Assembly (NCBI RefSeq): GCF_037975245.1
Contig: NC_092568.1
Location: forward strand, 38,156,501 to 38,220,500
Length of the DNA: 64,000 nt
Origin: Apostichopus japonicus
Lineage: Eukaryota > Echinodermata > Holothuroidea > Aspidochirotida > Stichopodidae
Reading direction: 5' to 3'
The first letter of the stretch is position 1. Every line of letters starts with the position of its first letter. A program made the translations under genes and the position numbers. Shown piece by piece: positions 8,352 through 49,333 of this stretch. Under the pieces are notes generated by a model. It worked only from the letters and a program-made list of their open reading frames with translations, made no database searches and had not been told where the DNA came from.

Positions 8352-8615
8352 ATTAGAAAGATGAAATTTAAGCTTTTTATACCCGCCCGCCCCGAGACTT
8401 ATTTTGCAAAGTTGAATATTCAACTCTAGACCACCTATATGGTTACTTATCCCATTAAACTAAACAATGTACATTGTGTTATATGACTTGAGAAGCTATA
8501 TGGTAGCATATACGCCCGGATATGATTGCCCCGATGACTGACGCACGCACGCACACTCACCGTACTGAGAGTCTGAAGCTAGCTACGTTCGTCCGACTTG
8601 TGAACAAACCTCTTA

Positions 8616-8632
8616 AAGGAATTGTCTGGTGG
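8616..8632 (+). repeat. left terminal inverted repeat of the DNA transposon
   Basis: AAGGAATTGTCTGGTGG. It pairs with the inverted right end except for one extra A. Whether the first A belongs to the element or to the target duplication is ambiguous. Confidence 0.85.
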
Positions 8633-9072
8633 AAGATTTTGATACATTGTCCTTGTAGTTATTATTTTTCTCTTTCTAACCATGTAAAAATTGTCCCCAT
8701 TCGACGTTTTCTTCTTGTAGAAATCTGGTTTTCAAATTCACCAGTTTCTCACCAAAAGTACCGTTTGTTCGAACGCTTCAATATGGTGATTGACGTAGTG
8801 CTTGCAGATAGGCAAAACAGGCGACTTGAAGTTAGCACTCCCAATTCCGCAGCAAATTAACTCACGTGTAAGCACATTGAATTGCCTCATATATATAACG
8901 TACATACTGGCGAACGTATATACTACGATGCTCAGTTGGTGTATAGCGTTACACATAGTACACTCACACTCAAACCACAGTTCATTAACTGTTCGTCGAA
9001 ATCGCTGAAATAAATTTCACGGATCAAATTAACAGTAAAAGGAAACTTATAAAGTATTCGTTAAACCGAAAG

Positions 9073-9555
9073 ATGAAACTTGGCGGGATCGATGTCATCG
9101 CAGAACTGTCCGATTGTAACGCTAGAGTAGCCTATACACGCGAACATTCTTCGCGCTGGAGCTGGATACCGCGATGTATAAACAACGAAGAGCCTGCTGT
9201 TAAAACTTATCTTGTGTTACACAAAGACCACGAAACCACCGATCTACTACATATATTGCGGCTTAAGGAGTTTTTTAAATTATATCTAATTTATAAGAAA
9301 TTTCACCGGAAATTATTGAAGAAATTGATCGATTCGTTGTCAGAGCAGAATATAGCACTGAGAAGCTTAGGCTTCGCAGAACTGTCCGATTGTGAACGTT
9401 TGAGTATAGCCTACATGCGAACATTTTTCGCGTTGGAGCTGGATAGCGCGATGTATAGCCTGAACAACTCAGAGTCTGCTGTTAAAATTTACCTTGTGTT
9501 ACACAAAGACCACGGAACCACCGCTCAAGTACATGGCGGCTTAAGGAGTTTTTGA
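9073..9555 (+). CDS. unidentified 160-residue open frame inside the DNA transposon
   Basis: I do not recognise this protein. The frame runs over both internal direct repeats, so the product holds two related segments: residues about 11-100 begin AELSDC and contain TYLVLHKDHETT; residues from about 103 begin AELSDC and contain IYLVLHKDHGTT. The first segment continues into a basic, lysine- and leucine-rich stretch (KLYLIYKKFHRKLLKKLID). The second copy diverges and stops in the matching place. No signal peptide or membrane segment is evident, and no transposase catalytic motif is seen. It may be captured host coding sequence, a remnant of the element's own gene, or a chance frame. The in-frame duplication and shared LVLHKDH segment are the only support for coding. 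Confidence 0.25.
   Translation: MKLGGIDVIAELSDCNARVAYTREHSSRWSWIPRCINNEEPAVKTYLVLHKDHETTDLLHILRLKEFFKLYLIYKKFHRKLLKKLIDSLSEQNIALRSLGFAELSDCERLSIAYMRTFFALELDSAMYSLNNSESAVKIYLVLHKDHGTTAQVHGGLRSF
9098..9326 (+). repeat. internal direct repeat of the transposon, copy 1
   Basis: About 229 bp from TCGCAGAACTGTCCGATTGT to GAAGAAATT. It is matched with scattered substitutions and small indels by 9374-9604, 276 bp further on. Shared landmarks are GAGCTGGATA, CTTGTGTTACACAAAGACCA and AAATTTCACCGGAAATTA. Confidence 0.85.
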
Positions 9556-9604
9556 AAACATATCTAATTTTTAAGAAATTTCACCGGAAATTAAGGAAGA
9601 AATT
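9374..9604 (+). repeat. internal direct repeat of the transposon, copy 2
   Basis: Second copy of the 9098-9326 repeat. The offset of 276 bp equals 92 codons, so the beginnings of both copies are read in the same frame. Confidence 0.85.
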
Positions 9605-9846
9605 TATCTGTATACAAACGCTGTTTTTGTTGTGATTACCGTATAGGTACTGTGCGGAGGGTGGGTTATGACGCAATCTGCTATGGCAGAGCTGACGTCA
9701 CGTATTGTACTGTTCAAATCATTTTTGAAATGTCTATCCATAACGATTAAAAAATCGTTTCTCTGTCAAACGCAACATTAGCGTTCTCATACTTTGACAA
9801 CATGTTTGGAAAATTATTTACTATTTTTTAAGGTAACTTCTTTGGG

Positions 9847-9862
9847 CCACCAGACAATCCTT
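9847..9862 (-). repeat. right terminal inverted repeat of the DNA transposon
   Basis: CCACCAGACAATCCTT, the inverse of the left end. It is followed directly by TTAACATAG, where the normal spacer resumes. Confidence 0.85.
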
Positions 9863-13857: not shown

Positions 13858-14670
13858 ATTAGAAAGATGAAATTTAAGCTTTTTATACCCGCCCGCCCCG
13901 AGACTTATTTTGCAAAGTTGAATATTCAACTCTAGACCACCTATATGGTTACTTATCCCATTAAACTAAACAATGTACATTGTGTTATATGACTTGAGAA
14001 GCTATATGGTAGCATATACGCCCGGATATGATTGCCCCGATGACTGACGCACGCACGCACACTCACCGTACTGAGAGTCTGAAGCTAGCTACGTTCGTCC
14101 GACTTGTGAACAAACCTCTTAACATAGTGTTCGTACGCTGCTCATGGGAAGCCTAAAGTGGTCTAAAATTGCCTCAATCGACCTAATTTCTGCATCACAT
14201 TTACTTCCCTTTGTGTACTCCGACATCCAAGCCACAAAAAACGAGAGATTTTGTTTGAGAACATATCAAGAAAGATGTTCTCCTGTTTCTTTTCGGCACT
14301 TTTCCTGAGGGAGAACACTCGTGCAGCGTGCATGCATGCGGAATGATATATAGCCCTAATGATACACTTGTCTCGAATTAAAGGGAGCTGGAGAAAAACT
14401 TGTGATTGCAATGACAGGACACAACAATAGTGGTATATCATGGCAAGTCAATGTCTTCAACGGTGGTGGTGGTGGGGGGGGGGGGTTTGGGAGGGGGAAA
14501 AACTTTTCATAACAATGACAGGATAAAACAATAGTGACAAAGAAATAAAGAAAGAAAGGGGTGCGGTTGTGGGTGAGGAAAAATGAAAAAGTCTACGGCA
14601 CCTAGTATTCCCAGGCGGTCACCCATCCAAGTACTGACTAGGCTCGACGCTGCTTGACTTCGGTGATCGG

Positions 14671-14679
14671 ACGAGAACC

Positions 14680-14682
<3 letters not shown>
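14671..14682 (-). repeat. LINE target-site duplication, 3' side
   Basis: ACGAGAACCGG followed by T, identical to 15784-15795. It corresponds to 5S nucleotides 28-38. The last T is ambiguous between target and tail. Confidence 0.93.
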
Positions 14683-14710
<28 letters not shown>

Positions 14711-14714
14711 TTGA

Positions 14715-14737
14715 CGGAAGAACCCACTGGTTCTCCG
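14715..14737 (-). other. hairpin at the 3' end of the LINE RNA
   Basis: CGGAAGAACC, loop CACT, then GGTTCTCCG. Nine base pairs with one bulged A, ending five bases from the poly(A) tail. Many LINEs use a 3' stem-loop for recognition by their reverse transcriptase; such a role here is inferred from position only. Confidence 0.5.
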
Positions 14738-14878
14738 ATTGAATTTACAGATATTAACATGGTTACAAAAAATAAAGAAAGAGAATATATATAAAACTAT
14801 AACAATAATACAGCACTATCAATACAATCATGTACAACAATAAAGGAGTAATCCTAGAATGAGGAAGGCAAGAGAAAA

Positions 14879-15778
14879 TTAACTATCAAACTTGTACTCG
14901 TAGGAGCCATCTTCAAGAGGCTTGAGAATGACGTCACCTTGAGTAAACAACTCCCAAAATGTAGAAATTTCTTTTTTCTTTACAAAATAGTGGAATAAGA
15001 AATCGATTTTCTTTCTTAGTGAATTATGAAAGAAGTGTTGAATATTAATGTGTTTTTCCCCGTTCAGGAGGCTAACACGAGTGGTCCAAACAACTTTTTT
15101 GAAAGTGTTTAGAATAAAATCAATCGAAATTGTCTCATGCCTCCTATGATTGAGTTCCATACCTAAGAGAGTTATTTGCCTCCATTTATCATTGTTGTTG
15201 ATTTTACAGATTTTCTGAAGCTTCTTGATAATATCTCTCCAGAGAAGATTTACGGTTTTGCAATCGACAAAAAGATGCAAGACAGTTTCATTATGGTTCT
15301 TACATAAAGTACATAAAGGAGAGTCAACTAGCTTAAAAAGATACAACTTATCGTTACAGAATAAAATATTATGAAGAAGACGGAAATCGAGGTCACTATC
15401 GTGAAAAGCTTTTAGACCTTTGTAGACATTGGTCCACCTATGTTCAAAAGAGATATCGTTAAAAACGTGTTTCCAGTGGATTTCGCCTTTTGGAATTGTA
15501 GAGACGGCCTCCCTTAGGAGATCAGTTGCATTCCTGACACTAACGGTGGACGCATCTAGCGTGGTATCACCACAAGAGAGAGTGAGTGAAAGTGACTCAT
15601 TGTCATTTTGACTTACAATTTTATCGCCCGAATAGATTTGTTCAAGCCAATCTTTTGGGAAAGCCTTCAAAATAGATGTGACGTAATCATGTACGTCATC
15701 AATATTAAGTTTACAATTTGGGTTGGCCATAGTAATGGCTTCATGGATACCCTCCGCGGGAAGCCGTCTTGGGATCAT
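14879..15778 (-). CDS. LINE ORF2 C-terminal fragment with C-C-H-C zinc knuckle (zf-RVT-like)
   Basis: 299 residues, open to a stop at the 3' side; the first methionine is only the first one inside the truncated copy, because full ORF2 proteins of this type are usually over 1000 residues and begin with endonuclease and reverse transcriptase domains, both absent here. Residues about 102-150 (HWKHVFNDI ... FRLLHNILFCNDKLYLFKL) match the conserved segment downstream of the reverse transcriptase in L1/Tx1-type elements. The knuckle follows: Cys156, Cys159, His168, Cys173 (C-x2-C-x8-H-x4-C), in SPLCTLCKNHNETVLHLFVDC-like context. The rest is a basic C-terminal domain (FHNSLRKKIDFLF) ending YEYKFDS. 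No stop or frameshift interrupts the 299 codons, consistent with recent arrival. It is a dead fragment as a transposition gene because it lacks its catalytic part. Confidence 0.88.
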   Translation of the reverse strand: MIPRRLPAEGIHEAITMANPNCKLNIDDVHDYVTSILKAFPKDWLEQIYSGDKIVSQNDNESLSLTLSCGDTTLDASTVSVRNATDLLREAVSTIPKGEIHWKHVFNDISFEHRWTNVYKGLKAFHDSDLDFRLLHNILFCNDKLYLFKLVDSPLCTLCKNHNETVLHLFVDCKTVNLLWRDIIKKLQKICKINNNDKWRQITLLGMELNHRRHETISIDFILNTFKKVVWTTRVSLLNGEKHINIQHFFHNSLRKKIDFLFHYFVKKKEISTFWELFTQGDVILKPLEDGSYEYKFDS

Positions 15779-15783
15779 TTCAT

Positions 15784-15795
15784 ACGAGAACCGGT
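15784..15795 (-). repeat. LINE target-site duplication, 5' side
   Basis: ACGAGAACCGGT, joined directly to the remaining 5' part of the 5S gene. Confidence 0.93.
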
Positions 15796-16555
15796 ATATT
15801 CAACGTGATATGGTCGTAGACATTAGAAAGATGAAATTTAAGCTTTTTATACCCGCCCGCCCCGAGACTTATTTTGCAAAGTTGAATATTCAACTCTAGA
15901 CCACCTATATGGTTACTTATCCCATTAAACTAAACAATGTACATTGTGTTATATGACTTGAGAAGCTATATGGTAGCATATACGCCCGGATATGATTGCC
16001 CCGATGACTGACGCACGCACGCACACTCACCGTACTGAGAGTCTGAAGCTAGCTACGTTCGTCCGACTTGTGAACAAACCTCTTAACATAGTGTTCGTAC
16101 GCTGCTCATGGGAAGCCTAAAGTGGTCTAAAATTGCCTCAATCGACCTAATTTCTGCATCACATTTACTTCCCTTTGTGTACTCCGACATCCAAGCCACA
16201 AAAAACGAGAGATTTTGTTTGAGAACATATCAAGAAAGATGTTCTCCTGTTTCTTTTCGGCACTTTTCCTGAGGGAGAACACTCGTGCAGCGTGCATGCA
16301 TGCGGAATGATATATAGCCCTAATGATACACTTGTCTCGAATTAAAGGGAGCTGGAGAAAAACTTGTGATTGCAATGACAGGACACAACAATAGTGGTAT
16401 ATCATGGCAAGTCAATGTCTTCAACGGTGGTGGTGGTGGGGGGGAGGGGGTTTGGGAGGGGGAAAAACTTTTCATAACAATGACAGGATAAAACAATAGT
16501 GACAAAGAAATAAAGAAAGAAAGGGGTGCGGTTGTGGGTGAGGAAAAATGAAAAA

Positions 16556-17009: not shown

Positions 17010-17109
17010 NNNNNNNNNNNNNNNNNNNNNNNNNNNNNNNNNNNNNNNNNNNNNNNNNNNNNNNNNNNNNNNNNNNNNNNNNNNNNNNNNNNNNNNNNNN
17101 NNNNNNNNN
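17010..17109. other. assembly gap of exactly 100 N within a spacer
   Basis: Flanking sequence is in phase: about 208 bp of spacer would fill it in a normal unit. A fixed run of 100 N is a placeholder, so the true size may be 208 bp or that plus whole units. Confidence 0.97.
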
Positions 17110-47960: not shown

Positions 47961-48078
47961 GTCTACGGCACCTAGTATTCCCAGGCGGTCACCCATCCAA
48001 GTACTGACTAGGCTCGACGCTGCTTGACTTCGGTGATCGGACGAGAACCGGTATATTCAACGTGATATGGTCGTAGAC
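47961..48078 (-). rRNA. 5S: 5S ribosomal RNA (minus copy 54, last of the block)
   Basis: Intact 118-nt core, two-T marker. About 310 bp of its upstream spacer follow before the N gap where the array changes direction. Confidence 0.96.
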
Positions 48079-48391
48079 ATTAGAAAGATGAAATTTAAGC
48101 TTTTTATACCCGCCCGCCCCGAGACTTATTTTGCAAAGTTGAATATTCAACTCTAGACCACCTATATGGTTACTTATCCCATTAAACTAAACAATGTACA
48201 TTGTGTTATATGACTTGAGAAGCTATATGGTAGCATATACGCCCGGATATGATTGCCCCGATGACTGACGCACGCACGCACACTCACCGTACTGAGAGTC
48301 TGAAGCTAGCTACGTTCGTCCGACTTGTGAACAAACCTCTTAACATAGTGTTCGTACGCTGCTCATGGGAAGCCTAAAGTGGTCTAAAATT

Positions 48392-48491
48392 NNNNNNNNN
48401 NNNNNNNNNNNNNNNNNNNNNNNNNNNNNNNNNNNNNNNNNNNNNNNNNNNNNNNNNNNNNNNNNNNNNNNNNNNNNNNNNNNNNNNNNNN
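48392..48491. other. assembly gap of exactly 100 N at the array direction switch
   Basis: Left flank is spacer of the minus-strand block (ending GTCTAAAATT). Right flank is 3' spacer of the plus-strand block (starting TCACCCACAACC). The fixed N count marks a scaffold join of unknown length, so the joint itself is not sequenced. Confidence 0.97.
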
Positions 48492-49214
48492 TCACCCACA
48501 ACCGCACCCCTTTCTTTCTTTATTTCTTTGTCACTATTGTTTTATCCTGTCATTGTTATGAAAAGTTTTTCCCCCTCCCAAACCCCCCCCCCCCCCCCAC
48601 CACCACCACCGTTGAAGACATTGACTTGCCATGATATACCACTATTGTTGTGTCCTGTCATTGCAATCACAAGTTTTTCTCCAGCTCCCTTTAATTCGAG
48701 ACAAGTGTATCATTAGGGCTATATATCATTCCGCATGCATGCACGCTGCACGAGTGTTCTCCCTCAGGAAAAGTGCCGAAAAGAAACAGGAGAACATCTT
48801 TCTTGATATGTTCTCAAACAAAATCTCTCGTTTTTTGTGGCTTGGATGTCGGAGTACACAAAGGGAAGTAAATGTGATGCAGAAATTAGGTCGATTGAGG
48901 CAATTTTAGACCACTTTAGGCTTCCCATGAGCAGCGTACGAACACTATGTTAAGAGGTTTGTTCACAAGTCGGACGAACGTAGCTAGCTTCAGACTCTCA
49001 GTACGGTGAGTGTGCGTGCGTGCGTCAGTCATCGGGGCAATCATATCCGGGCGTATATGCTACCATATAGCTTCTCAAGTCATATAACACAATGTACATT
49101 GTTTAGTTTAATGGGATAAGTAACCATATAGGTGGTCTAGAGTTGAATATTCAACTTTGCAAAATAAGTCTCGGGGCGGGCGGGTATAAAAAGCTTAAAT
49201 TTCATCTTTCTAAT

Positions 49215-49333
49215 GTCTACGACCATATCACGTTGAATATACCGGTTCTCGTCCGATCACCGAAGTCCAAGCAGCGTCGAGCCTAGTCAGTACTTGGATG
49301 GGTGACCGCCTGGGAATACTAGGTGCCGTAGAC
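49215..49333 (+). rRNA. 5S: 5S ribosomal RNA (plus copy 1, one-base insertion)
   Basis: Core of 119 nt with an extra C at nt 53 (AAGTCCAAGC), in the box A region. First gene right of the direction switch. Variant or error. Next copy 858 bp on. Confidence 0.88.

Follow-up and report, generated by a model that had tools for sequence, protein, structure and literature searches.

A LINE family that inserts at one site of 5S rRNA genes in Apostichopus japonicus, and its relatives in other tandem repeats

The window analysed here, a stretch of 64,000 nucleotides of the Apostichopus japonicus genome (C8:38156501-38220500), is an array of 5S rRNA genes with 72 5S matches (Rfam) and a unit spacing of ~852 bp. 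One of these genes, on the minus strand between 14590 and 15821 with its +1 at 15821, is interrupted past nucleotide (nt) 38. Read along the minus strand, 5S nt 1-38 are followed by an element of 1102 bp that ends in 28 A and then by the 5S gene again from nt 27/28, written in this way because A27 of the gene is indistinguishable from the poly(A) (Table 1). The flanking target duplication of 11-12 bp, ACCGGTTCTCGT, corresponds to 5S nt 27-38. An earlier reading of the window (henceforth referred to as the sequence-only reading) had described a LINE inside a 5S gene, in the orientation of the gene, with a duplication of 5S nt 28-38; both statements were borne out, the duplication of nt 27-38 being equivalent given the ambiguity of A27. 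The poly(A) tail and the TATA box ahead of the insert, which that reading had also named, were found as described, the latter as TATAAAA, the sequence that also lies at -30 of the intact neighbouring unit, and the truncated ORF2 was recovered as a stop-to-stop frame of 306 aa (14879-15799) with a zf-RVT domain above its cut-off (29.7 bits against 27.5, Pfam). A match of the window fragment to Phage_coat (Pfam E 0.13; PDB coat protein E 0.01) was taken as chance. The internal Pol III promoter presumably lies within the 3' part of the interrupted gene.

Table 1. The interrupted 5S rRNA gene and its insert (window coordinates)
Feature	Position	Strand	Remark
TATA box (TATAAAA), starting at -30 of the interrupted 5S gene	15845..15851	-	distance taken on the intact neighbour
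5' part of the interrupted 5S gene, nt 1-26	15796..15821	-	matches the intact neighbour (reference) exactly
Upstream copy of the target duplication, 5S nt 27-38 (ACCGGTTCTCGT)	15784..15795	-	
5'-truncated LINE, family F1, 1102 bp with poly(A)	14682..15783	-	
C-terminal part of ORF2 with zf-RVT zinc-binding domain; stop codon 14879-14881	14879..15783	-	
3' hairpin GGAGAACC-AGTG-GGTTCTTC	14717..14736	-	compensatory changes over the seven families compared
Poly(A) tail, 28 nt; final A possibly 5S nt 27	14682..14709	-	
Downstream copy of the target duplication, 5S nt 28-38	14671..14681	-	
3' part of the interrupted 5S gene, nt 28-119	14590..14681	-	Rfam 49 bits, 14600-14695

The whole genome (671.6 Mb, 35 contigs) was searched with a probe made of the 3' 1 kb (1078 bp) of the window element, whose family we call F1. 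At least 17 DNA matches were found, taken as 16 elements (L001-L015 and L016/L017), with L016 and L017 (83-86% identical) counted as two pieces of one diverged copy; over the probe, the window insert is 96-98% identical to the 14 other copies L002-L015. All 16 elements found, which sit on three chromosomes (C8, C17 and C22), have an A-rich tail followed by the 5S gene from ~nt 28 in sense orientation. The 3' join to 5S is exact in 11 of the 16 and shows small changes in five (an extra C in L012 and L013; one base changed or missing in L002, L003 and L016), and of the 16 loci scanned with Rfam (L002-L017) all but L017, the 5' piece, contain a 5S match. Since genome searches of this kind rank the best candidates, the F1 counts are lower bounds and F1 copies outside 5S may be missed. 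A probe from the endonuclease region gave at least 20 matches, of which 11 are F1 copies, all among the 16 already known, and eight, at 69-72% identity, are sister families; it also matched a 128-bp, 90%-identical F1-like fragment at C17:23467532, around which a motif search of 3.1 kb found no 5S motif. Genome-wide, 19 exact matches to poly(A)+CCGGTTCTCGTCCG were found and none to the reversed control pattern, and by position we assigned 11 of these junctions to F1, four to family F2 and one to family Fd (both described below), leaving three unassigned. The idea of a 5S-specific element, put forward in the sequence-only reading, is upheld by the site and orientation common to all F1 elements found: when the flanks of the other copies were tabulated, the unrelated flanks that would speak against it did not appear, the 128-bp fragment being the only exception. 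Insertion of F1 into 5S genes is thus confirmed as targeting, not chance.

Because several of the 16 elements are array duplicates (L006/L007, L010/L011 and L012/L013), they represent at least 11 separate insertions rather than 16. This figure follows our own grouping, in which copies were compared in truncation point, flank and 5S type and likely duplicates were lumped: the window copy; L009; L005/L010/L011; L006/L007; L003; L004; L002/L012/L013; L008; L014; L015; and L016/L017. L005, which differs from L010 by 3.6%, may be an additional insertion event. On C8, the F1 copies L027, L026 and L021 (C8:38024521, 38036947 and 38049382) lie ~12.4 kb apart with F2 copies in between, a series that we read as amplification of a multi-insert 5S block.

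Complete F1 copies are ~5.4 kb long (5356-5394 bp in the four measured, L019, L021, L025 and L026). Both ends are present, and ORF2 is open over 1303 codons, in five copies (L019, L021, L022, L023 and L025, of which L022 and L023 are duplicates of each other); their ORF1 is shorter in L019 (a frame of 319 aa) than in the other four (384-388 aa). In L026 and L027, ORF2 is split in two frames. ORF1 (P0001, from L025) contains a zf-CCHC zinc knuckle (29.4 bits against a cut-off of 20.8), and ORF2 of a complete copy (P0002) contains an Exo_endo_phos (APE) endonuclease domain at 50.8 bits and an RVT_1 reverse transcriptase (RT) domain at 117.9 bits, both over their cut-offs; zf-RVT scored 26.5 bits in this ORF2, slightly under the cut-off of 27.5 that the window copy exceeds. 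The complete F1 ORFs are under purifying selection: among four complete ORF2s, dN/dS was 0.19-0.24 in five of the six pairs and 0.62 in the sixth, the closest pair, with 10 differences only. Probe sequences without any difference (0.0%) were found on different chromosomes (L008 on C22 and L009 on C8; L004 on C17 and L005 on C8), and the tree of F1 copies does not track the arrays, which together indicate recent movement of F1 between arrays. That recent copies within 5S arrays are identical between chromosomes lends indirect support to the suggestion that the 5S array is a safe haven for the element.

A tblastn search with ORF2 gave at least 40 matches (the best 36 of 4455 candidates scored), which we sorted with F1 into families named F1, F2 and Fa-Fe from protein identity and the 3' end. 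F2, ~52% identical to F1, ends at the identical 5S site, twice on C8 and twice on C17. When the 3' flanks of 20 places were read, two F2 copies lay in 5S, in 16 copies the poly(A) ran into a tandem repeat, either T2 or T3, and at L065 and L067 a 3' junction was not seen. T2, with a unit of mostly 164-165 bp, follows the poly(A) in 12 places (families Fa, Fb and Fc), and T3, with a unit of 156 bp, in four (families Fd and Fe). By eye, T2 contains a B-box-like motif, GGTTCGAAC, and both repeats an A-box-like TGGCGCG. A reading of T2 and T3 as true tRNA genes found no support: ARAGORN called no tRNA in the 11 of the 20 3'-flank loci that it scanned, and Rfam gave two sub-threshold matches, neither of them tRNA, in the nine of the 20 loci scanned. 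Over 281 common ORF2 columns, 162 are identical between F1 and F2, 168 between F1 and Fc and 143 between F2 and Fc, so that the two families found in 5S do not clearly stand closest to each other; judged from these sequences, the use of 5S in the lineage would be either old or repeated. ORF1 identity among F1, F2, Fd and Fc is 46-58%. Overall, at least three families, with proteins only about half identical to one another, share one position in the 5S gene.

The 3' ends of the families also have a structure in common, an 8-bp stem near the tail with the loop AGTG (AGTA in one row). We examined it in 13 rows of our choosing, one to three per family from seven families and 12 of them distinct, leaving out L016, L078 and L080. 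In these rows 94.8% of 96 cells were paired, compared to 85.3% in shuffled rows, and covariation was 0.402, compared to 0.220 when shuffled (reached by none of 500 shuffles) and at most 0.174 in slid registers; three pairs were changed on both sides, a count equalled or exceeded in 100 of the 500 shuffles. The hairpin has been kept by compensatory change over the seven families, and it is presumably the recognition element of the RT. Two Fd copies on C17 have altered hairpins (L078, CCAGTGGCTTC; L080, CCATTTGG).

At the other end of the element, the 5' join falls after 5S nt 38 (written 38/39 if the following base is identical) in 12 of the 15 F1 copies tabulated, and the three truncated copies on C22 join at nt 27, 31 and 30. 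These C22 copies are without most or all of the target duplication, which indicates that cutting of the second strand is not fixed. T-runs of 5-6 start ~20 nt into the F1 element. Some copies carry additional target sequence ahead of the 5' end. L019 lies in a 5S gene of type B (GACTATACC), yet nt 38 is followed by a leader of type A (TGAATATACCGG) that consists of type-A nt 20-38 and one extra T before the element begins; L025, 99.2% identical to L019, lies in a type-A 5S gene and has the identical leader, one T shorter. A local tandem duplication in L019 would instead have reproduced type B. On the simplest reading, the donor resided in a type-A gene and its RNA included at least nt 20-38. 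Similarly, in the Fe copy L074, ~20 nt of T3 are repeated ahead of the 5' end. Upstream of the F1 copy in L018, L028 and L029, a C17-type spacer is joined to nt 1-38 of 5S in its type-A or a variant form, and the 3' half of the gene is of the C17 type; perhaps the whole 5S leader came from the donor here, or gene conversion took place.

Fd apparently occurs in two targets. A 31-nt pattern of the Fd 3' end (at most two mismatches) was found in 12 places and in none with the reversed control, and seven of the 12 were read (those on C2, C8, C12 and C21 and at C15:7586427 were left out). The Fd copy on C11 lies in T3; Fd-type 3' ends are followed by 5S from nt 28 at three places on C17 and by T3 at one on C19. 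The C11 copy in T3 and the C17 copies share 96-97% DNA identity over the Fd ORF1 region, and one of these C17 copies, at C17:23100271, precedes the 5S-joined 3' end at C17:23105607 by 5.3 kb; the remaining Fd places were assigned from the 3' end alone. Another Fd copy on C17 begins directly after 5S nt 41 with 19 nt that are imperfectly T3-like, then 27 nt identical to T3 and then the Fd 5' sequence. Its 3' junction was not found, and L072, read for the 3' end of the Fd copy starting at C17:22709784, proved to be other sequence. The 27 nt of T3 ahead of an Fd 5' end are likely the trace of a target switch. In two places on C15 (L081 and L083; C15:7576155 and 7596977), the Fd-type 3' end lies near the anticodon arm of a tRNA-Gly gene (anticodon TCC), the 3' half of which follows. 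These halves scored 26.5 and 28.2 bits in Rfam, slightly under the gathering score of 29 bits; an unrelated Rfam family also matched there, far under its own cut-off, and no ORF1 match was found near these C15 places. An Fd ORF1 piece (query 1-916) is present in twelve copies, 97% identical, at C17:17275995-17555396, which were probably amplified together with an array.

We tentatively entertain the possibility, to which we give slightly less than even weight, that a LINE lineage has been caught here in the middle of a change of target, with Fd in both T3 and 5S, an RNA that carries a leader from the donor, and a resemblance between the targets (GGTTCTCGT / GGTTGCTCTGT) that guides the switch. 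If this is true, site-specific LINEs move between Pol III-type gene arrays by similarity, and the carried leader is a readable record of the former home. The way in which target-specific LINEs gain and change targets is known mostly from the comparison of distant families. This genome contains seven related families (by our grouping) with at least three tandem targets and complete open-frame copies, and both the step of retargeting and the model of read-through transcription are directly testable in one animal.

We consider it highly probable that the insert in the window is a 5'-truncated F1 copy, and that F1 is a recently active site-specific LINE that integrates by target-primed reverse transcription at one 5S site. 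The APE endonuclease would nick the antisense strand of the 5S gene at nt 27/28, and the poly(A) RNA, recognised via the 3' hairpin, would prime at the nick; the second strand would usually be cut after nt 38, giving the duplication of 11-12 bp. The F1 RNA may start upstream, within the host repeat unit, and the target leader that it carries would then anneal to the cut end; such annealing would account for the precise 5' joins of complete copies as well as for the occasional duplication of a leader. T-runs (T5-T6) should stop Pol III. Given such runs near the F1 5' end, we favour Pol II over Pol III as the polymerase, and the transcript would more likely start from the 5S TATA box, the internal promoter being displaced by 5 kb.

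Could a generalist LINE have landed by chance in large, tolerant 5S arrays? The arrays are big repeated targets, the window copy alone cannot tell, and one 128-bp fragment does lie away from 5S; however, with 16 of 16 elements at one position (plus or minus a base or two) and in one orientation, a pattern that holds on three chromosomes and in several 5S types, and with no match to the junction pattern in the control, we regard a chance landing as extremely improbable. Very unlikely, too, is that one insertion was spread by amplification of 5S units and gene conversion, not by repeated targeting. Amplification itself clearly occurs, as seen in the ~12.4-kb spacing on C8, the identical probes of L006 and L007 and the 12 near-identical Fd pieces at 17.28-17.56 Mb of C17. 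As the sole cause it is ruled out by the differing truncation points, five in five truncated copies, and by the different 5S types; tail lengths and spacers vary too, yielding at least 11 distinct signatures in our grouping, and F2 and Fd, which are other families, occupy the identical 5S position.

Tethering of retroelements to Pol III factors is known from Dictyostelium TRE and yeast Ty elements, and the site could be chosen mainly in this way and not by the DNA specificity of the endonuclease. The targets of the lineage, 5S and the T2 and T3 repeats with tRNA-like A- and B-box motifs seen by eye, together with the tRNA-Gly gene targeted by two copies with an Fd-type 3' end, would suit such tethering. 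However, the exact nucleotide is nearly fixed in each target, which tethering alone would not give, and neither ARAGORN nor Rfam made a tRNA of T2 or T3 in the loci scanned; moreover, 5S (CCGGTTCTCGT) and T3 (TTGGTTGCTCTGT) look similar by eye, which would suit sequence-based retargeting, as stated for Dada. We think tethering unlikely as the main determinant.

Among solved structures, the best match of F1 ORF2p is human LINE-1 ORF2p (297 bits, E 2e-87), with R2 at no more than 72 bits, in a set of matched structures that includes no Jockey, CR1, RTE, R1 or Tx1 RT. R2-type LINEs have a restriction-like endonuclease and a single ORF, and a member of this type is ruled out by the APE endonuclease and two ORFs of F1. 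CCHC zinc knuckles in ORF1 are typical of Tx1, the clade of the L1 group that includes Mutsu and Dewa, unlike mammalian L1. F1 is compatible with membership of the Tx1 clade; the features expected there, an APE endonuclease, RT and zinc-binding domain in ORF2 and a CCHC knuckle in ORF1, are present. No relatives were confirmed in public viral and prokaryotic contigs.

A site-specific LINE in 5S genes is an already known kind of element. Mutsu is described as a 5S-specific LINE of zebrafish of ~5500 bp with two ORFs between UTRs (PMC11202950; also named in PMC3706591), which F1, at ~5.4 kb and with two ORFs, resembles by description; here, by contrast, several families use one site and one family appears in two targets. 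Elements of the Tx1 clade, including Keno in U2 genes, insert specifically in multicopy RNA genes (PMC4640811), and the target of Dewa is the tRNA-Leu spacer (PMC3706591). F1 has in common with these Tx1 elements the APE endonuclease and specific insertion in multicopy RNA genes, whereas T2 and T3 are tandem repeats matched to no named gene. Tribolium freemani has, like the species studied here, a LINE (~5 kb) inside its 5S arrays, but one classed as Jockey-like; 32 of its 113 5S copies are without the first 30 bases, and these occur only in LINE-bearing arrays (PMC11202950). Such pseudogenes are what insertion near nt 30 would be expected to leave. Dada-5S elements use 5S and tRNA genes, and related families have similar targets (PMC8869645), but Dada is a DNA transposon without reverse transcriptase and F1 a LINE. 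A Tx1-clade fragment near 5S has been reported in a loach (PMC4647339) and Tx1 elements in gastropods (PMC11203168). In the portion of the open-licence literature available to us we found no description of one LINE family using 5S and another tandem repeat; as far as we have seen, the multi-target lineage, the presence of one family in two targets and the donor leaders at some 5' ends are new.

The 5S array of the window has further features. A 1249-bp insert in a 5S spacer (8614-9862), with a TTAA duplication and ~17-bp terminal inverted repeats of the AAGGATTGTCTGGTGG type, looks like a non-autonomous DNA transposon when read by eye. One 100-N gap lies at 17010-17109, and the array changes strand within 48078-49215, next to another 100-N gap (48392-48491), a flip that may be an assembly join.
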